This document shows positions 8,674 through 57,712 of a DNA stretch of 64,000 nt, piece by piece (the first letter of the stretch is position 1; each line of letters begins with the position of its first letter). Origin of the DNA: Kiloniella laminariae. Its GTDB lineage: Bacteria > Pseudomonadota > Alphaproteobacteria > Kiloniellales > Kiloniellaceae. The stretch spans positions 434,001 through 498,000 of the forward strand of contig NZ_JAPWGY010000002.1 in assembly GCF_027214005.1 (NCBI RefSeq). The letters are read 5' to 3'. Both the position numbers and the translations under genes were made by a program. Under the pieces are notes generated by a model, which searched no databases, was not told the origin of the DNA, and saw nothing but the letters and a program-made list of their open reading frames with translations.

Positions 8674-8910
8674 ATGTTATATCTTACCCGGAAAATTGGT
8701 GAGTCCGTCATCATTAACAACAACATTGAAGTTCAGGTTGTTGATATACGTGGCAAGTCCGTCAAAATCGGCTTTACCTTTCCAGAGGATGCAACCGTTC
8801 TCCGCCAGGAATTGCATGAACGTATCCAGGAAGAAAACCGGGCGGCTGCAGCTGCAACCCTGGACGCTCTTGGACTCAATTTTGATGATTCTGAATCAGA
8901 AAAAGAATAG
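8674..8910 (+). CDS. csrA: carbon storage/translation regulator CsrA
   Basis: 78-residue homodimeric RNA-binding protein. The core MLYLTRKIGESVIINNNIEVQVVDIRGKSVKIGFTFPED is classical CsrA/RsmA, including the L4-R6 strand that contacts GGA in RNA. In place of the Val-His-Arg run of gammaproteobacterial proteins the helix region reads VLRQELHERIQEEN. A C-terminal tail of about 20 residues (to FDDSESEKE) exceeds the 61-residue E. coli protein; such tails are seen where FliW is the antagonist. fliW is at 30283-30789, and both flagellin leaders contain GGA-loop hairpins. Confidence 0.95.
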   Translation: MLYLTRKIGESVIINNNIEVQVVDIRGKSVKIGFTFPEDATVLRQELHERIQEENRAAAAATLDALGLNFDDSESEKE

Positions 8911-30217: not shown

Positions 30218-30282
30218 GTCTTTGTGAAGTCACGCTTACCATTCGTTAATCATGGTTGCCTATTGTAACGGGAAGGCCCATT

Positions 30283-30789
30283 ATGCTGAATATCAGTCCT
30301 AATTACAAAGCGCAGGATTTCGTCGGAACAACAATGCCGAAAACCGTAGAAGCATCAAAGAATATTATTACCCTGAAAACCCGTTTCGGCGTGATGGAGC
30401 TGGATCGCGATCGCGCAATCAAAATGCCGCAGGGGGTCGTCGGGTTTTCTGAATACAAGGAATTTGGCCTTACTGTCCCGGTTCACCCCGTCCTGGAGGG
30501 CTTCACGCTCATGCAATCAATCCAGGAAGCTGAGTTAACCTTTATATTGAAGCCCTACGATCTACAAAGTGGCCTGATCAGTGATACAGATCTTGCTGGT
30601 GCAATTCAGCAATATGCAATTGCCCCTGAAAACGTCGCAATCATGCTGATCACCACGCTTAGACAGACTGCCGACGGCTTACGTAAAACAGTTAATATGC
30701 GGGCACCGGTCCTGATCGACACTCAGCGCCAGATGGCGTGGCAGCATATCCTTAGTTCAGAGGACTACAATGTCCGTCACAACATATAA
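30283..30789 (+). CDS. fliW: flagellar assembly factor FliW (CsrA antagonist)
   Basis: 168 residues from the ATG at 30283, which has a GGAAGG ribosome site 7 bases upstream; a TTG nine codons earlier is less likely. Family landmarks: TRFGVMELDRDRAIKMPQGVVGFSEYKEFGL, LMQSIQEAELTFILKPYDL, and NMRAPVLIDTQRQMAWQHIL (the NLRAPI.I...R.g.Q.vL block of FliW). FliW binds either flagellin or CsrA. When flagellin is exported, freed FliW removes CsrA from flagellin mRNA. Both csrA and two flagellin genes with GGA-loop leaders are in this window. Confidence 0.92.
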   Translation: MLNISPNYKAQDFVGTTMPKTVEASKNIITLKTRFGVMELDRDRAIKMPQGVVGFSEYKEFGLTVPVHPVLEGFTLMQSIQEAELTFILKPYDLQSGLISDTDLAGAIQQYAIAPENVAIMLITTLRQTADGLRKTVNMRAPVLIDTQRQMAWQHILSSEDYNVRHNI

Positions 30790-35950: not shown

Positions 35951-38290
35951 TCATCCTTCGATTACAATATGCTCATTCTGTTGCCCCTTACAGTATCTAT
36001 CCCACATTATCGTGTAAGCCTGCTCCAGAGCTGAACAGGAGCGTTTGCCACTGCCTGCAATTTCCTCTTTGTACGTCTTTCTTAAGTCCAAACGAACGTT
36101 ATCAAGATGAGGAAGTCTCTCGGCAATCCCCACTGCCTTGTTAATGTATTCGGAAATATCATGAGAAATCAGTTCTTCATGCCCAAAGTATCTGAGTAGA
36201 GAGGCCCCGATATTCTCTTGTAGTGCACGCCCTCCCTTAAGGGCAATAAAAGCTCGTCCCATATAAAGCATATCAAGAGATGTCGTCGCACCATTAAACG
36301 GGAAAGTATCAAGGCCGATGTCAACTTCATTGATTTCTTCTAGATACTCGAGATAGTCCCCTCTTTCTCTGAATATCAAACGCTCCCGGTCTACCCCTAC
36401 AGCTTTCAGGCTCGCAAGCATTTGCTCCGTAAAGTGATCTCCCTCTGCGCCACTACGCTTAACCAGAAGACGTGAGTCCGGTACCCTTTCCAAGATACGT
36501 GCCCAGGTTTCGATACAGTTTTTTGAAATCTTATGTGAACGGTTGAAACTACCAAAGGTTACATACCCGTTTTCTTGGAATGGCAAAGGCTTGGTTGAAA
36601 TATTCTCGGCCCCTTTTCTGACATTATAGCTCGTGATCCCGGGAAGATGAACCAACTTCTCGGAAAACAGATCTGCGTCTGAAAGCGGCACAGTGATAGC
36701 CTGGGTAATAAAATAATCGATAGAATCAAGCCCGGTCGTTCCAGGATATCCAATATAGGTCGCCTGGACGGAGGCCGGTTTCCGGCTTAAAGCCTTCAAA
36801 CGATTGCCTGAAGTATGACCAGATAGATCAATCAAAATATGAATACCGTCATCAACAATTTTTTGAGAGAGATCGGCATCACTCAGATCCGCGACATAGG
36901 CGAGTTGATCACAGTTTTCTTTTATCTCCTTGGTAACGGTTTCAGAGATATTCCCTTTTCTTTCAATTTGGGAGTAAAGGTAAATTTCAAATTTCTCACG
37001 ATTATGGTGCTTAACAATAGGCAGCCAATAATAGCTCACGACGTGATCACCAAAATCCCCGGAGATATAGCCAATCCTGAGTTTTGTGTCTTTATTTTTG
37101 GGGAAATTGTATTCTTTTACTCTTTGGTCCCCAGTCGCAGCGTGCAGTCGTTGCCAATCCCGCGCTTCGTTATAGTGCTCGACAGGATCACTACCTGGTG
37201 TCTGCAGCAGGGTGAATAAAACATTACTGTGATATTCACTTTTCTCCGGGGCGAACTCTAAAGCTTTTCGATAATACTCAATCGCTTTTTTGCTCTCGCC
37301 AAGATGTTCATATACAAACCCGATATTATTATAGCATTCATGATATCCAGGTTTCTTGGCAATCGCTTTATTGTAATAAATCTCTGCTTCTACAAATTCA
37401 TTTAGCTGCTGACATGCAACCGCATAATTAAACAACAGTTCTGCATCCTCTTGATCCCGAATAATCGCCTTCTTCAAGATGCCTTTTGCTTCGTTGTTAA
37501 TCGCATTATCAGCAAGGAGAACCCCAAAAACCTTTAAGACATGAAGGTTATCAGAGTTCGCCTCGTAAGCCGCAGCAGCAAGCTTTAAGGCCTTATCCTT
37601 GTCACCTCTATCTTTATATATTTTACTCAGAACCAGTAAATCCTTCTCGCGATTAGTCGCTTTTCCCAGATCATTGGAGACGACGTATTCTGCTTCCTCC
37701 AAGCGTCCTAACTGAATAAGACATTTTGCCACATCACAACGACAGTTGCTATCAAGCGGCCTCTTCTCATAACAAATTCGATAATGTTCTAGAGCCTTAT
37801 CCTCGTGTCCTAAATTTTTAAAACATCCCGCAGCCAACTGGTTGCAAATAAAATTATCCTTGTCTTCAGCTAAGCCTGATAAATATGCGCCAAGGGCAGT
37901 TTCCGTCTCTTGAATTTCTTGGAAAGAATTACCGAGCTGAATCCATCCTTCAATAAAATCAGGCTTCAAGCGAAGACAAAAATCAAAACATTCCGCAGCA
38001 AGATCAAAAGCCCCTGCTGTTTGGAAAAATACGCCAAAATTGTAGTAATCAAGATGCTGAACAAACTTGAGACGAGAAACGCCATCAAAAATTTCGCGGA
38101 AAACTGACGTATTCCCATCAAGTAAAAACTTGATGGACTGAGAAAAGACAAATACCGGGTGTACTGGTTTACGTTTTAAAAATCTATCGGAGATTTCGAA
38201 AGCTTCTGGGAATCGTTGATTATTCAAAAATTGCATTACATTTTCAGCAGCAATTTCGATTTTATAGTTAAATTTCCCTCCTGGCCTCAC
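35951..38290 (-). CDS. TPR-containing O-GlcNAc transferase (SPINDLY/GT41 family)
   Basis: 779 residues. The N-terminal ~370 residues form a TPR superhelix (GWIQLGNSFQEIQETETALGAYLSGL, ECYNNIGFVYEHLGESKKAIEYYRKALEFAPEKSEYHSN). The C-terminal part is the GT41 catalytic region: LRIGYISGDFGDHVVSYYWLP, ILIDLSGHTSGNRLKALSRKPASVQATYIGYPGTTGLDSIDYFI, YVTFGSFNRSHKISKNCIETWARILERVPDSRLLVK and DIGLDTFPFNGATTSLDMLYMGRAFIALKGGRALQENIGASLL. Such enzymes modify Ser/Thr of flagellins in the cytosol in several bacteria. It is the first gene of the operon and lies just beyond fliS/fliD/flagellin, so flagellin is the likely acceptor. The DNA here is visibly AT-richer than the surrounding flagellar genes. Confidence 0.92.
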   Translation of the reverse strand: MRPGGKFNYKIEIAAENVMQFLNNQRFPEAFEISDRFLKRKPVHPVFVFSQSIKFLLDGNTSVFREIFDGVSRLKFVQHLDYYNFGVFFQTAGAFDLAAECFDFCLRLKPDFIEGWIQLGNSFQEIQETETALGAYLSGLAEDKDNFICNQLAAGCFKNLGHEDKALEHYRICYEKRPLDSNCRCDVAKCLIQLGRLEEAEYVVSNDLGKATNREKDLLVLSKIYKDRGDKDKALKLAAAAYEANSDNLHVLKVFGVLLADNAINNEAKGILKKAIIRDQEDAELLFNYAVACQQLNEFVEAEIYYNKAIAKKPGYHECYNNIGFVYEHLGESKKAIEYYRKALEFAPEKSEYHSNVLFTLLQTPGSDPVEHYNEARDWQRLHAATGDQRVKEYNFPKNKDTKLRIGYISGDFGDHVVSYYWLPIVKHHNREKFEIYLYSQIERKGNISETVTKEIKENCDQLAYVADLSDADLSQKIVDDGIHILIDLSGHTSGNRLKALSRKPASVQATYIGYPGTTGLDSIDYFITQAITVPLSDADLFSEKLVHLPGITSYNVRKGAENISTKPLPFQENGYVTFGSFNRSHKISKNCIETWARILERVPDSRLLVKRSGAEGDHFTEQMLASLKAVGVDRERLIFRERGDYLEYLEEINEVDIGLDTFPFNGATTSLDMLYMGRAFIALKGGRALQENIGASLLRYFGHEELISHDISEYINKAVGIAERLPHLDNVRLDLRKTYKEEIAGSGKRSCSALEQAYTIMWDRYCKGQQNEHIVIEG

Positions 38291-41339: not shown

Positions 41340-42143
41340 TTACTGCAGCACTCGCAGAAGCTGCTGAGGAATCTGGTTCGCCTGAGACAGAGCAGACACA
41401 GCCGCCTGTACAAGCACGTTGTTAGATACCAGTTTACTCTGTTCTGCAGCCAAATCCACATCTTTAATTGCAGAGTTCGCTGCATCAATGTTCTCGATAG
41501 AGGTCGCAATCGCCTGACCACGGGTCTCAAAGCGAGAAATATACGCACCAAGTGTTGCTCGTTGAGTCGAAAGGTTCTGAATAGCCCCATCAACAGCTCC
41601 GATAGCGGCCGTAGCACCAGCCGTCGTCGATACAGTACCACCAGGACCAGCAACAGCAGTCAAGGTATTCAGGTTAATGGCAATAGTATGAGATGTAGAA
41701 ACCCCAACCAAAAAACTCTGACTAAAAGTGTTGACAATTTGCTGATTGTTAAAGGTCGTAGAGGTAATAATATCTCCAACTTCAGTATTCAACGCCTGAT
41801 ATTCTGCGTTAATATAACCACGTTCTGTATCAGAGATCACACCGGACGAAGACTGGGCAGCCAGAGCTTTCAAACGTTGCAGAACATCAGCAATACGTGC
41901 CAAAGCACCATCTCCAACCTGCAAAACAGAAGCAGCCTGAGAGGCGTTGGTCGCAGCCTGTTTTAACACGGTGGAATCTGAGGTAAGTTTCGTACTAATT
42001 GCCAAGCCGGCAGCATCGTCAGAAGCACGCACAATTCTGGACCCGGAAGAAAGTTTACTTACGGAGTTTGCGGCAGCAGCTGAGTTGTTGTTAAGAAAGC
42101 GAATGGCCGAGTTCGCAGCAGTGTTTGTAGCAACTACAGGCAT
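41340..42143 (-). CDS. flagellin, short type (paralogue 1)
   Basis: 267 residues. N-terminal D0/D1 (NTAANSAIRFLNNNSAAAANSVSKLSSGSRIVRASDDAAGLAISTKLTSDSTVLKQAATNASQAASVLQVGDGALARIADVLQRLKALAAQSSSG) and C-terminal D1/D0 (LGAYISRFETRGQAIATSIENIDAANSAIKDVDLAAEQSKLVSNNVLVQAAVSALSQANQIPQQLLRVLQ). The surface D2/D3 domains are missing; only a short Thr/Ala/Gly-rich segment links the halves. Preceded by a sigma-54 promoter, a leader with three GGA-loop hairpins and upstream FlbD-like repeats. The TLR5-recognition motif typical of gammaproteobacterial flagellins is diverged, as in other alphaproteobacteria. Confidence 0.96.
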   Translation of the reverse strand: MPVVATNTAANSAIRFLNNNSAAAANSVSKLSSGSRIVRASDDAAGLAISTKLTSDSTVLKQAATNASQAASVLQVGDGALARIADVLQRLKALAAQSSSGVISDTERGYINAEYQALNTEVGDIITSTTFNNQQIVNTFSQSFLVGVSTSHTIAINLNTLTAVAGPGGTVSTTAGATAAIGAVDGAIQNLSTQRATLGAYISRFETRGQAIATSIENIDAANSAIKDVDLAAEQSKLVSNNVLVQAAVSALSQANQIPQQLLRVLQ

Positions 42144-42175
42144 AATTTTAATCCTTCTACTTGAAGTATGTTACA

Positions 42176-42245
42176 CCTTGATCCTCCTGATCAAGGCTCT
42201 AAAATCGTCTTCCTGACGATCCGGATATTTCATCTCTTCCTGAAA
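42176..42245 (-). promoter_or_regulatory. flagellin leader RNA with three GGA-loop hairpins (candidate CsrA sites)
   Basis: Read on the minus strand, the leader between the sigma-54 promoter and the flagellin start can form three stem-loops: 42228-42245 (TTTCA/TGAAA, 8-base loop starting GGA); 42204-42220 (ATCGTC/GACGAT, loop AGGAA); 42176-42196 (CCTTGATC/GATCAAGG, loop AGGAG). GGA in a hairpin loop is the known high-affinity CsrA target. The nearest hairpin ends 32 bases before the start codon, close to the ribosome site (AAGGA). CsrA binding itself is inferred. Confidence 0.72.
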
Positions 42246-42265
42246 ATCGTATCCTACCCCTCATA

Positions 42266-42283
42266 AAAGCAAAAACAATGCCA
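42266..42283 (-). promoter_or_regulatory. sigma-54 promoter of flagellin paralogue 1
   Basis: Minus strand TGGCAT-N5-TTGCTT: full consensus match in both elements, with GG and GC separated by 10 bases. The predicted transcription start is near 42257, giving a leader of about 114 bases. Confidence 0.88.
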
Positions 42284-42369: not shown

Positions 42370-42418
42370 TCGGCAATTATTGCCCAGCGCACCCACCGGT
42401 CGGCAATTGTTGCCTAGC
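42370..42418. promoter_or_regulatory. paired palindromic repeats, candidate FlbD enhancer of flagellin
   Basis: Two 19-base direct repeats, TCGGCAATTrTTGCCyAGC, at 42370-42388 and 42400-42418. Each contains the palindrome GGCAATTrTTGCC. Centres are 30 bases apart (about three helical turns) and lie roughly 90-130 bases upstream of the flagellin sigma-54 promoter, as expected for an enhancer-binding protein. They overlap the last codons and stop of the aminotransferase gene. A similar degenerate pair lies upstream of fliF. FlbD (56276-57712) is the obvious candidate. Confidence 0.72.
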
Positions 42419-43525
42419 TGGGGCGTCAAGAATTCGCTCAAGCTCACCGCATACTCTGCTGACATTGGCACGTGTCATTGTCGAGAAAAAGGGAACCCCA
42501 AAAACATGGTGATATAAATATTCACTCACAGGAAGTTTGCCGATACAACTCCGCCCAAACACTTGATTGCGATACAACTCATCTTCCCACCAGATCCTGG
42601 CTGCAACCTCAGCCCGTTCAAGTCCGTCAATAATTTTACGAGCAGGATAATCCCTGCTGACCAAATTCATTGTGCTTGTTGCTCCGGTTTCACCATTGTG
42701 AAACACTGAAAGCCCATCAATTTTGTATAAAAAATCATCATACCACGCCCGGACCTCAAACAATCTCTTTCTGATTTCGGGCCAGCGCTTCAGTTGCGCC
42801 AATCCTACTGCGGCATGAAATTCGCTCATCTTGGCGTTTACACCAAGTGACGACGCAACACGAGAGCCTGCAAATCCAAAAGACGTTGCATGTTTCAAAC
42901 GCACGAGTAAATCACTGTCACCGCTCAGCACCAGCCCCCCCTCACCAATCCCGAGCGACTTTGTTGCATGCAAACTGATAATTGTTGGCACTTTCCCTGG
43001 AGTGACCTTATCAAAAGAGGCCGCTGCATCAATTACAACGGGCAGCTTGTGTTTTGTCACGAACTCATCCCACTCCCGGGCATCAACCGGATAACCAAAA
43101 GGAGCCACAGGCAATACGACCCGAATTTGTCGGGAGGCCTTGCACAACAATGCTTCTTCTGCGATTTGAGGCGTGAGGACTCCGGTTATCGGGTCGACAT
43201 CGGCAAACAAAGGGATCAATCCTGCCGAAACCACGACTTGAGCTGTGGCAACAAAGGTCCAGGCAGGCAACAGGCAATAAGCCGGTTCGTCGAGCGGTTT
43301 TTCGCCCACCAGCAAGCGGAGCACCTCAGTTAAGGCCGCAGTCGCATTGCTCGCAGTAACAACTCCATTTTCGGACAGAGAAAATTTCTCGGCAATTAAC
43401 TTCTCAAACTCACACACCAAAGGGCCAAAATTACTATACTGGCCCGAGAGTTCTATTCTCTTCAAGAAAGGAACAAGCTCTTCTGTAGACGGGAAATCTG
43501 GCTGAAATAATGGCAGCATCGGCAC
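42377..43525 (-). CDS. DegT/DnrJ/EryC1/StrS-type PLP aminotransferase
   Basis: 382 residues. PLP-dependent sugar aminotransferase family: ASNATAALTEVLRLL near the N-terminus, PVVIDAAASFD (cofactor ring contact), PLP-lysine in TIISLHATKSLGIGEGGLVLS, and SSLGVNAKMSEFHAAVGLAQLKRW. Acts on nucleotide-linked keto sugars in the cytosol. Located between two flagellin genes, which suggests a role in making the sugar put on flagellin. Its C-terminus (after the ERILDAP segment) is encoded within the palindromic repeats of the flagellin control region, so its last residues may be poorly constrained. Confidence 0.9.
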   Translation of the reverse strand: MPMLPLFQPDFPSTEELVPFLKRIELSGQYSNFGPLVCEFEKLIAEKFSLSENGVVTASNATAALTEVLRLLVGEKPLDEPAYCLLPAWTFVATAQVVVSAGLIPLFADVDPITGVLTPQIAEEALLCKASRQIRVVLPVAPFGYPVDAREWDEFVTKHKLPVVIDAAASFDKVTPGKVPTIISLHATKSLGIGEGGLVLSGDSDLLVRLKHATSFGFAGSRVASSLGVNAKMSEFHAAVGLAQLKRWPEIRKRLFEVRAWYDDFLYKIDGLSVFHNGETGATSTMNLVSRDYPARKIIDGLERAEVAARIWWEDELYRNQVFGRSCIGKLPVSEYLYHHVFGVPFFSTMTRANVSRVCGELERILDAPARQQLPTGGCAGQ

Positions 43526-43670: not shown

Positions 43671-44537
43671 TTACTGCAATAGCGACAGTAACGTCTGAGG
43701 CAACTGGTTAGCTTGAGACAAGGCTGACACCGAAGCCTGAACCAATACTTGAGAAGAAACCAGCCTGCTTTGCTCCGCTGCCAGATCCACATCCATAACG
43801 GACGATTTGGCGGCATCGATATTTTCCTTCGATGTTGCAACCTGCTGCCCCCGGAACTCAAAGCGGGAAATGATTGACCCAAGGTTCGCCCGAGCTTCCG
43901 AGACCTCATTAATTGCCAAGTCGACAGATGCCATAGCTGTAGTAGCGGATGCCGCCGTTGACACAGAAGTGGCGCTGATTGCGGTCCCCCCTGTAGCAAG
44001 CGATCCAGCAGTAAAATCTGATGCTGTTGCAGAAAGTGATGCGATATTCACCGCAATAACGTCGGCTGTGGTAACGCCGACAAAGAAATTCACAGTACCG
44101 GCACCAAACTGCGTACCTGTTCCATCCAGCAGGGACTCTCCGTTAAAGCGGGTACTCGCAGCCATCCCAGATATTTCCGAAATCAACTGATTATACTCAG
44201 CATTAATAAATCCACGCTCAGTGTTTGTCGGCACACCAGAAAGGGACTGAGCGGCAAGAGACTTCATACGAATAAGAACATCGGCAATTCGCCCCAGGCC
44301 ACCATCAGCGACCTGCATGACAGCAGCACCTTGCGCCGCATTGACAGAAGCCTGCTGCAGCACCGAACTATCTGCGCGCAATCTTGTTCCAATTGCCAGA
44401 CCTGCTGCATCATCAGCAGCAGTAACAATACGTGAGCCACTCGCCAGTTTGGAGATAGCTTTTCCGGAAGCGGTCGAGTTTGCGTTCAAAAAACGCAGCG
44501 CCGAGTTCGCAGCAGTGTTTGTTGTAATCGTAGGCAT
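43671..44537 (-). CDS. flagellin, short type (paralogue 2)
   Basis: 288 residues from the ATG at 44537 (MPTITTNTAANSALRFLNANS), preceded by GAAAGGAAAG; a longer frame would run through the promoter and leader. Same D0/D1-only architecture as paralogue 1 and near-identical termini (NIDAAKSSVMDVDLAAEQSRLVSSQVLVQASVSALSQANQLPQTLLSLLQ). The central part is richer in Ala/Ser/Thr and about 20 residues longer. It has its own sigma-54 promoter, leader hairpin and terminator, so the two flagellins can be expressed independently. Confidence 0.96.
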   Translation of the reverse strand: MPTITTNTAANSALRFLNANSTASGKAISKLASGSRIVTAADDAAGLAIGTRLRADSSVLQQASVNAAQGAAVMQVADGGLGRIADVLIRMKSLAAQSLSGVPTNTERGFINAEYNQLISEISGMAASTRFNGESLLDGTGTQFGAGTVNFFVGVTTADVIAVNIASLSATASDFTAGSLATGGTAISATSVSTAASATTAMASVDLAINEVSEARANLGSIISRFEFRGQQVATSKENIDAAKSSVMDVDLAAEQSRLVSSQVLVQASVSALSQANQLPQTLLSLLQ

Positions 44538-44564
44538 TTTCTTTCCTTTCACATTCGGCTCAAC

Positions 44565-44585
44565 GGAATAGCCTCCTGCTATCCC
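44565..44585 (-). promoter_or_regulatory. AGGAG-loop hairpin in the leader of flagellin paralogue 2 (candidate CsrA site)
   Basis: On the minus strand, an 8-bp stem (one G-U pair) GGGATAGC / GCTATTCC closes the 5-base loop AGGAG, the same loop as the best hairpin of the other flagellin leader although stem sequences differ. It lies 27 bases before the start codon. A second hairpin without GGA (CCGCA/TGCGG) lies next to it at 44587-44601. Confidence 0.68.
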
Positions 44586-44624
44586 ACCGCAAGCAATGCG
44601 GCACTTTGTTGATTTCGACATTAC

Positions 44625-44642
44625 TAAGCAATAGGCGTGCCA
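44625..44642 (-). promoter_or_regulatory. sigma-54 promoter of flagellin paralogue 2
   Basis: Minus strand TGGCAC-N5-TTGCTT: a perfect -24/-12 match with correct spacing. The predicted start is near 44617, leaving an 80-base leader. No clear copy of the GGCAATTnTTGCC repeat is seen upstream, in contrast to the other flagellin. Confidence 0.9.
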
Positions 44643-56275: not shown

Positions 56276-57712
56276 ATGCGTCTATTGATTGTTGGCTCGC
56301 TTGAAGGTCACATGATTACCGCCGGAAAAATCGCCTTTGAGCGAGGAGCTAAAGTGGCAACTGTCGATGATATAAACCAAGCCATGTCTTCGCTTCGTAC
56401 CGGTCAGGGAGCAGATCTGCTGCTGGTCGATATTGACCTCGACATCGATACCCTCTGCAAGAACCTTTTGGCCGAACGTTTTTCTGTGCCCGTTATTGCC
56501 TGCGGTATCGGCACACAACCTTCGAAAGCCGGTGATGCAATCCGCTCTGGGGCAAAAGAGTACATTCCTCTGCCACCTGACGCCGAATTGATCGCCGCGG
56601 TTCTGGCCGCGGTTACCGAAGAAACCACTGCTCTTGTTTTCAAGGACCCTGCTACCGCAGCCGTTTTACGGCTGGCAGAACAGATTGCTCCTTCTGATGC
56701 CAGTGTCCTGGTCACAGGAGAAAGTGGAACCGGTAAAGAGGTCATGTCCCGTTATCTGCATTCAAAATCGAAACGGGCCAAAAATCACTTTATTTCTGTA
56801 AACTGCGCTGCAATCCCTGAAAATCTTTTGGAATCAGAGCTGTTTGGCCATGAAAAAGGTGCCTTTACCGGTGCTATTGCACGCCGTATCGGAAAATTTG
56901 AAGAAGCCAATGGCGGCACCTTGCTGCTGGATGAGATATCAGAGATGCATCCCCGCCTGCAGGCAAAGCTGTTGCGTGCGGTACAGGAGAGGGAAATTGA
57001 TCGCGTTGGCGGAACCCAGCCGATCAAGGTTGATATCCGCCTGCTGGCCACCTCGAACAGGAACCTGGAAGAGGAAGTCAAAAAAGGCAACTTCAGGGAA
57101 GATCTCTATTACCGCCTGAATGTGGTGAATATCGAGATGCCTGCGTTGCGGGAAAGGCCGCTGGATATCGAGATCCTGGCTGAACATTTCATTGGAAAAT
57201 ATGCGAAGTCCAACGGCATCGCCAAACCCGCCCTGACCCCCGAAGCCAAACATCAGCTTCTGCAACACCACTGGCGTGGAAACGTTCGCGAGCTGGAAAA
57301 TACCATGCACCGAGCCGTACTGCTGTCTCGTGACAACCTGATCAGCCCTGAAGCAATCATGCTGACAGGAAGCGCCACCTTTGGACCAACACCAATCGCG
57401 ACACCCTCGGTTCCGCCAGCAGTTCCCCCGGCAATTCCCGGATATCCTGCGCCTGGAAAAGCTGTTGCATCATCCCAACCGATGTCCGGTGCGGAAGCAT
57501 CCGGGGGTGCAATGGTTGGAAGAACCGTCGCCGATGTGGAAAGGGATCTTATTCTGAACACACTGGACCATTGTCTGGGCAACAGAACCCATGCGGCAAA
57601 TATTCTCGGAATTTCCATCCGGACCTTGAGAAACAAGCTGAAACTGTACAGCGAAGATGGGATTGAAATTACGGGACCGGGCGGTAATGACAGCCTGAGT
57701 CCCTCACTTTGA
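56276..57712 (+). CDS. flbD: sigma-54-dependent flagellar regulator FlbD
   Basis: 478 residues. N-terminal receiver-like domain (1-120) in which the paired acidic residues at the start are missing (LLIVGSLEGH), so ordinary phosphorylation is doubtful, as for Caulobacter FlbD. The AAA+ domain has Walker A GESGTGKE (148-155), the sigma-54 contact loop GAFTGA (195-200), Walker B GGTLLLDEISEM and the arginine finger region FREDLYYRLNV. A Pro/Ala-rich linker leads to a Fis-type HTH (HAANILGISIRTLRNKLKLY). Probably acts on the sigma-54 promoters and GGCAA repeats listed here, under control of FliX. Confidence 0.95.
   Translation: MRLLIVGSLEGHMITAGKIAFERGAKVATVDDINQAMSSLRTGQGADLLLVDIDLDIDTLCKNLLAERFSVPVIACGIGTQPSKAGDAIRSGAKEYIPLPPDAELIAAVLAAVTEETTALVFKDPATAAVLRLAEQIAPSDASVLVTGESGTGKEVMSRYLHSKSKRAKNHFISVNCAAIPENLLESELFGHEKGAFTGAIARRIGKFEEANGGTLLLDEISEMHPRLQAKLLRAVQEREIDRVGGTQPIKVDIRLLATSNRNLEEEVKKGNFREDLYYRLNVVNIEMPALRERPLDIEILAEHFIGKYAKSNGIAKPALTPEAKHQLLQHHWRGNVRELENTMHRAVLLSRDNLISPEAIMLTGSATFGPTPIATPSVPPAVPPAIPGYPAPGKAVASSQPMSGAEASGGAMVGRTVADVERDLILNTLDHCLGNRTHAANILGISIRTLRNKLKLYSEDGIEITGPGGNDSLSPSL

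Follow-up and report, generated by a model that had tools for sequence, protein, structure and literature searches.

Tandem pentaloop hairpins in the flagellin 1 leader of Kiloniella laminariae and two candidate loop codes in alphaproteobacterial flagellin leaders

The leader of flagellin 1 in Kiloniella laminariae carries a row of real hairpins and is probably, on comparative grounds, a multi-site translational control element. Our best reading of the sequence evidence, to which we assign a probability of about 0.6, is that CsrA represses flagellin 1 translation by way of the leader loops and is released by FliW.

Hairpins of the flagellin 1 leader and the surrounding locus

The window, a 64,000-nt stretch of the K. 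laminariae genome, contains the following genes, promoter matches and flagellin 2 leader hairpin:

8674..8910, plus strand: csrA (78 aa), the sole match in the genome (4.38 Mb)
30256..30789, plus strand: fliW (177-aa frame; FliW domain at residues 55-177), the sole match in the genome
40872..41252, minus strand: flaG, immediately 3′ of flagellin 1
41340..42143, minus strand: flagellin 1 (267 aa; Pfam Flagellin_N 3.5e-29, Flagellin_C 5.7e-22)
42269..42283, minus strand: sigma-54-type promoter match TGGCATTGTTTTTGC of flagellin 1 (pattern match)
43671..44537, minus strand: flagellin 2, start MPTITTN (flagellin profile and searches)
44561..44589, minus strand: 12-bp hairpin C-AGGAG-G in the flagellin 2 leader, closing C 44578 (scan)
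44628..44642, minus strand: sigma-54-type promoter match TGGCACGCCTATTGC of flagellin 2 (pattern match)
56276..57712, plus strand: FlbD-like sigma-54 activator (NCBIfam NF050807, 744.1 bits against a cut-off of 750)

The original prediction had placed csrA and fliW in this locus and a sigma-54 promoter upstream of flagellin 1, with flbT and flaF missing, and had suggested transcriptional control by CtrA/FlbD; both genes, a sigma-54-type match and an FlbD-like activator are in the window. The sigma-54-type match is weak taken alone, as the pattern occurs six times in the window against 2.9 expected by chance. Neither flbT (PF07378) nor flaF found a match in the K. laminariae genome, and FlbT/FlaF was rejected on this ground as flagellin regulator in this organism. 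The closest named relatives that flagellin searches gave are from Kiloniella species.

Between the two flagellins lies a DegT/DnrJ/EryC1-type aminotransferase gene (42377-43525, minus strand), which perhaps plays a role in flagellin glycosylation, and a family 41 glycosyltransferase gene is found at 35951-38290. A third, distant flagellin in the same genome (L068, G000:C44:209296) has a different leader, with CGCAGGUAUGCG and CUCUAAGUAUGGAG near its start; these two sequences do not fold into C-N5-G pentaloops of the type sought by our scan.

If transcription starts at the sigma-54-type match (42283-42269), the flagellin 1 leader is about 115 nt long. Minimum free energy was compared with that of 200 shuffled sequences for the minus-strand leader at 42255-42144, which folded at −30.4 kcal/mol against −17.9 ± 2.7 for the shuffles (z −4.58; 0 of 200 as good). 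A wider stretch (42270-42110) gave the same hairpins at z −2.56, with two of 200 shuffles equally stable. The hairpins are:

42223..42254, minus strand: hairpin 1, an outer 5-bp stem GGAUA/UAUCC and an inner 5-bp stem with loop GGAAGAGA, or a pentaloop C-AGGAA-G on 4 bp, closing C 42242 (fold and scan)
42202..42222, minus strand: hairpin 2, 8 bp including G-U pairs, loop AGGAA (fold and covariation)
42175..42197, minus strand: hairpin 3, 9 bp including G-U pairs, loop AGGAG (fold and covariation)
42166-42154, minus strand: Shine-Dalgarno hairpin CUUC-AAGUA-GAAG, the fourth of the leader (fold)

Three tandem stem-loops with GGA in every loop had been predicted and were recovered, as hairpins 1 to 3; the stem lengths given for them (5, 6 and 8 bp) were too short, hairpin 1 having the additional outer 5 bp and hairpins 2 and 3 the lengths listed above. 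The Shine-Dalgarno hairpin and the flagellin 2 leader hairpin had not been part of that prediction. The loop of the Shine-Dalgarno hairpin lacks GGA, which appears instead in the adjacent GAAGGA (42157-42152), in and just past the 3′ arm (whole element 42152..42166). The loop set of the leader is AGGAA, AGGAA, AGGAG and AAGUA, with none of the C-ANAAN-G type.

Hairpins of the form C-ANGWN-G with a stem of at least 4 bp occur 19 times on the two strands of the window, about as many as expected by chance (a Markov control gave 7.2 per strand), whereas only four have stems of at least 7 bp and three of those four lie in the two flagellin leaders. Counting as a cluster at least two such hairpins within 100 nt, the 64 kb contain a single one, the flagellin 1 leader, with closing bases at 42242, 42215, 42189 and 42163 and spacings of 27, 26 and 26 nt. 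Rfam gave no match in the window at its curated score.

Covariation and loop variation within the family

In the 23 family genomes searched, csrA and fliW were each found in 22, and flbT and flaF in none. From flagellin searches and retrieved stretches we collected 78 distinct leaders, representing 20 of the 23 genomes: 45 of type 1 (17 genomes; motif CUUCA[AU]GUAGAAGG), 31 of type 2 (the flagellin 2 type) and two others. Forty-four distinct type 1 leaders were aligned, one duplicate being omitted. The Shine-Dalgarno hairpin is constant in this alignment by construction, since type 1 leaders were grouped by its motif, but hairpins 2 and 3 played no part in the selection.

Across the 44 leaders, the share of paired cells was 95.1% for hairpin 2 and 93.5% for hairpin 3, and double changes were seen in 13 of the 14 pairs of these two hairpins. 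There were 161 double-change cells against 44.8 in shuffles, and none of 500 shuffles reached the observed count; the compensatory stem changes expected from the original prediction are present in abundance. Overall pairing was 95.4%, a figure that includes the Shine-Dalgarno hairpin, while control structures slid along the same leaders paired at 36-58%. RNAalifold returned nearly the same structure from the family leaders without prompting. Stem changes in the Shine-Dalgarno hairpin were observed only between families, where the loop AAGUA is kept and the stem altered, for example to UCC/GGA.

The loops also vary. Hairpin 3 carries C-AGGAN-G in 33 of the 44 leaders, C-AAGAA-G in four, C-AUGAA-G in two and other loops in five; hairpin 2 carries C-AAGUA-G in 21, C-AAGAA-G in ten, C-AGGAA-G in one (that of the window itself) and others in 12. 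In ten aligned leaders of the genus, the hairpin 1 loop is AGGAA in nine and AAGAA in one. The original prediction had called for invariant GGA loops; GGA is mostly kept in hairpins 1 and 3, but its presence in hairpin 2 of a single leader rules out invariant GGA as the recognition element. As the loops of hairpins 2 and 3 vary in this way, GGA is a special case of a broader loop class, and what recurs by these tallies is a pentaloop of the form C-ANGWN-G. Several positions in the loops hardly change even though the stems do. Type 2 leaders fit less well: only six of 31 contain a C-ANGWN-G hairpin with a stem of at least 4 bp, and some have AAGCA or AGGCA loops, which fall outside the pattern. 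No hairpin of the C-ANAAN-G type was found in the 78 family leaders.

A strict sigma-54 match lies within 220 nt of only 16 of the 45 type 1 leaders; others occur in tandem arrays, such as one of six flagellin genes in G013 with gaps of about 90 to 102 nt. The element is tied to the cistron start more than to the promoter and, since in relatives it precedes array cistrons that have no strict sigma-54 match, it probably acts post-transcriptionally.

A model of hairpin 3 plus the Shine-Dalgarno hairpin (from which L061, which was misaligned, was excluded) matched 20 of 58 relatives at E 0.01, comprising 17 in the family plus G025, G048 and G031. It matched nine of 289 genomes in a class sample, six of these outside the order (E 6e-4 to 0.009). 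For the matches in G031, in G013:C44 and at C54:93737 of the K. laminariae genome itself (E 0.04), no flagellin-like frame was found within 200 nt.

Some leader copies stand without an intact flagellin. In three species, copies that are 93-97% identical over 60 nt (L158, L159 and L160; G016:C5:228215, G011:C14:66879 and G014:C5:124536) precede a 60-aa flagellin remnant consisting of the N- and C-terminal ends only, with dN/dS of 0.11/0.11, 0.27/0.29 and 0.31/0.29 (about equal) and no stops or indels. Here the leader outlives the flagellin, perhaps as a CsrA sponge or in control of the genes that follow; the frame after the remnant may be flaG, judged by its place only. A further copy (L162, G008:C2:163392) lies 3′ of a flagellin fragment with an internal stop, and just past it no ATG or GTG frame exceeds 22 codons.

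Loop types and the regulators FliW and FlbT

Among the 58 relatives, FliW was found in 37 and FlbT in 13, and the two co-occurred only in G038 and G041. The class sample of 289 genomes, 159 of which have a flagellin match at E 1e-10, contains FliW in 48 and FlbT in 98 (97 over the cut-off). No class genome has both, against 16.3 expected if they were independent, a count that ignores ancestry; all loop and regulator counts were made without a tree.

We define G-type hairpins as C-ANGWN-G and A-type as C-ANAAN-G, each closed by C-G on a stem of at least 4 bp. In the order, which served as discovery set, seven leaders from six FliW genomes outside the family include five with G-type loops (five genomes; e.g. 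AGGAN, AGGUA, ACGUA) and none with A-type, and CCAAGUAGG precedes the start in six of the seven. Thirteen leaders from 12 FlbT genomes of the same set show AGAAN loops in eight (eight genomes) in the same layout, one of these genomes (G023) having an AAGAA loop as well. Neither loop type was seen in the two genomes with both regulators, nor in G026 and G028.

At class level, leaders were taken from the best-scoring flagellin matches listed, which cover 35 of the 48 FliW genomes and 21 of the 98 FlbT genomes; one further FliW genome (L187, G260) was dropped because no flagellin start was found. The loop counts are not blind, since the patterns were settled after the class leaders had been viewed: the 48 FliW leaders listed contain 40 G-type and no A-type hairpins (0.6 and 0.5 in shuffles), and the 29 FlbT leaders listed one G-type and 12 A-type (0.7 and 0.4). 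Seven leaders from seven genomes without either regulator contain neither type. Counted by family among the leaders listed, G-type hairpins occur in 20 of 27 FliW families against one of 16 FlbT families, and A-type in none of 27 against eight of 16 (Fisher p 2e-6 for loop type against regulator, over families showing a type). Loops differ with the regulator inside families also, as f5 and f7 hold both kinds.

The association has gaps. Twelve of the 35 FliW genomes have no G-type hairpin at a stem of at least 4 bp; neither type is seen at stem 4 in seven of 27 FliW families and seven of 16 FlbT families; and if stems of 3 bp are allowed, two A-type hairpins appear in FliW leaders and two G-type in FlbT leaders. 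The G-type loops of FliW leaders comprise 18 AGGAN and 16 ANGUA among the 40. The contrast set beforehand, AGGAN against AGAAN alone at stem 4 or more, stands at 18 to 0 in FliW leaders and 0 to 2 in FlbT leaders. With the patterns fixed, a hold-out was drawn of 20 additional paralogue leaders, whose genomes had already contributed to the counts: four G-type and no A-type hairpins occur in 12 FliW leaders and no G-type and two A-type in eight FlbT leaders, which is sparse but in the predicted direction. Shine-Dalgarno hairpins of the AAGUA-like type occur in 25 of the 48 FliW leaders and in none of the 29 FlbT leaders of the class sample.

CsrA itself was found in all 13 FlbT genomes among the relatives, so that loop type follows FliW and not CsrA as such. 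Its sequence has features of its own in this group: the first-copy CsrA of all 40 genomes examined in the relatives set, that of the window included, has GFTFP or GFNFP in place of the GVNAP of the solved CsrA 1y00, in a segment that we take to border the RNA site. The only usual-type sequence found is a second copy in G039. Past the CsrA core, EENRAAA aligns with EENNRAAA of chain 1t3o, presumably the CsrA of Bacillus subtilis. FliW binds a C-terminal extension of CsrA, according to a review (PMC7652899). All 23 FliW-only genomes examined have the tail motif EN[RK]AA, as do 3 of 11 with FlbT only, neither of two with both and all four with neither; replacement of FliW by FlbT seems to have gone with erosion of the tail (23/23 against 3/11), the exceptions being the three FlbT genomes that keep it and the four without either regulator.

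By eye, the N-terminal part of FlbT (e.g. L252:484-897, minus) resembles alphaproteobacterial CsrA (ASILRERDI against ASVLRREI). A relationship was rejected on profile comparison: hhalign scores were 7.3 and 10.9, depending on direction, with probabilities below 1%, and among 40 column-shuffled controls three exceeded 7.3 and one exceeded 10.9. A sequence search of solved structures gave no FlbT relative, its one match (E 0.06) being chain C3HR3_9r_shift4.

FlbT-genome leaders with C-AGAAN-G or C-A[AC]AAN-G hairpins (L136-L138, L140-L143, L145, L205, L207, L208, L210, L212-L216 and L220) supply a candidate FlbT recognition element, as judged from loop recurrence. Rfam searches of 19 FlbT-genome loci gave two matches only, both under curated scores. 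The comparison suggests that two regulators that are mutually exclusive in the sampled genomes work on one kind of RNA scaffold. Tentatively, and with odds somewhat against it, we propose one ancestral alphaproteobacterial flagellin leader, a row of C-N5-G pentaloops ending in a Shine-Dalgarno hairpin, with two interchangeable codes that are told apart by loop position 3. Loops with G there would be recognised by a CsrA subfamily under FliW, those with A by FlbT, and regulator and loops would have switched together, at least in f5 and f7.

Proposed mechanism, alternatives and known systems

From the computed structure, covariation, loop recurrence and link to FliW, we infer a sequence of binding, bridging, block and relief, on the pattern of Campylobacter jejuni flaA (PMC4894983) and B. 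subtilis hag (PMC7652899). CsrA dimers would bind the leader loops, the GGA hairpins (1 to 3 in the window) first, and bridge to the weak Shine-Dalgarno hairpin; stabilised in this way, that hairpin would exclude ribosomes and block initiation. Export of flagellin would free FliW to bind the C-terminal tail of CsrA and lift the block, so that flagellin synthesis would not outrun export. This CsrA, in its alphaproteobacterial form with GFTFP replacing GVNAP, would also recognise the loops that lack GGA, most of which are ANGUA.

The CsrA-FliW-flagellin switch of the original prediction survives here as the best reading, with a recognition element that is not simply GGA but the wider C-ANGWN-G. 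The CsrB-type repeat CAGGA(U/A/C)G is matched exactly by CAGGAAG in hairpins 1 and 2 and, with a single mismatch, by CAGGAGG in hairpin 3 (PMC7652899). Against CsrA, GGA occupies hairpin 2 in only one of 44 leaders, and in the C. jejuni flaA leader CsrA binds four to ten times less well once GGA is changed to AAA, UGA or GGG (PMC4894983). Most loops known to bind CsrA with high affinity are hexaloops with short stems (PMC7652899), while those of the leader are pentaloops, some on long stems.

The loop classes have preferred places, AGGAN in hairpin 3 (33/44) and AAGUA or AAGAA in hairpin 2 (31/44), and the Shine-Dalgarno hairpin of these leaders has AAGUA, though they were chosen by that motif. 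CsrA might then read the AGGAN loops and a second protein the AAGUA or ANGUA loops of the Shine-Dalgarno hairpin and hairpin 2. Such a division seems unlikely to us: the classes swap at homologous places, with AAGAA in hairpin 3 of four leaders and AGGAA in hairpin 2 of the window, AGGAC and AGGAA appear in start-proximal hairpins of G250 and G151, and we have no candidate for the second protein. We are equally doubtful of a single reader other than CsrA that is inherited along with FliW and has dropped out of the FlbT genomes. It would account for many loops without GGA and for a loop type that tracks FliW and not the presence of CsrA, but the established partner of FliW is CsrA (PMC7652899), whose tail motif tracks FliW as well, and the CsrB repeat has two exact matches among the window loops.

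Hairpins set in the short gaps of tandem arrays (about 90 to 102 nt between the six genes of G013) could merely stabilise or process an abundant flagellin mRNA, their loops read by no protein; near-invariant loop positions on changing stems, and a loop class that varies with the regulator even inside f5 and f7, make this improbable. Chance inverted repeats, which the lower z of −2.56 with longer flanks and the near-chance number of 4-bp-stem hairpins window-wide might favour, are refuted by the covariation and by class-level recurrence far above shuffles.

If the two-code reading is true, it gives FlbT an element by which to recognise RNA, and CsrA one that does without GGA. The comparison yields a testable FlbT motif and a candidate second, non-GGA class of CsrA loops, and brings the matching of flagellin synthesis to export in alphaproteobacteria within reach of tests on two small proteins and short RNAs. 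A search of titles and abstracts, covering few subscription journals and with the original FlbT papers outside its scope, found no published account of the leader element or the two loop codes. A 2015 review leaves the FlbT RNA motif blank and terms its mechanism unresolved (PMC4347634), and the C. jejuni authors proposed FlaF/FlbT as a possible analogous system.

Among known systems, C. jejuni flaA is a close parallel: a flagellin mRNA with two covarying ANGGA-loop hairpins in tandem, of which the second covers the ribosome site; CsrA binds this leader, and FliW is present (PMC4894983). The Kiloniella leader differs in having at least three C-ANGWN-G pentaloops instead of two hexaloops. Several of them lack GGA, and the Shine-Dalgarno hairpin, whose loop is AAGUA, stands apart. 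The Hag-FliW-CsrA system of B. subtilis shares csrA, fliW, flagellin and a CsrA with a FliW-binding tail (PMC7652899); the comparison covers the proteins, and Kiloniella differs in having a sigma-54-type promoter match. CsrB/RsmZ-type CsrA-binding hairpins likewise present CAGGANG loops on stems, but those are sponge RNAs, whereas the Kiloniella element is a flagellin leader with a Shine-Dalgarno hairpin. In the Pseudomonas aeruginosa psl leader, the Shine-Dalgarno and anti-Shine-Dalgarno sequences form a weak hairpin whose loop is bound by the repressor RsmA (PMC7652899), although there is a single hairpin there and the gene is another. FlbT-controlled leaders (Caulobacter, Brucella) also place flagellin under post-transcriptional control in Alphaproteobacteria (PMC4347634), and many FlbT genomes have similar rows of pentaloop hairpins, with C-ANAAN-G where K. 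laminariae, which has no flbT match, has C-ANGWN-G. Relative to known CsrA-FliW flagellin leaders, we propose that what is new here is a non-GGA loop class and a sister code for FlbT.
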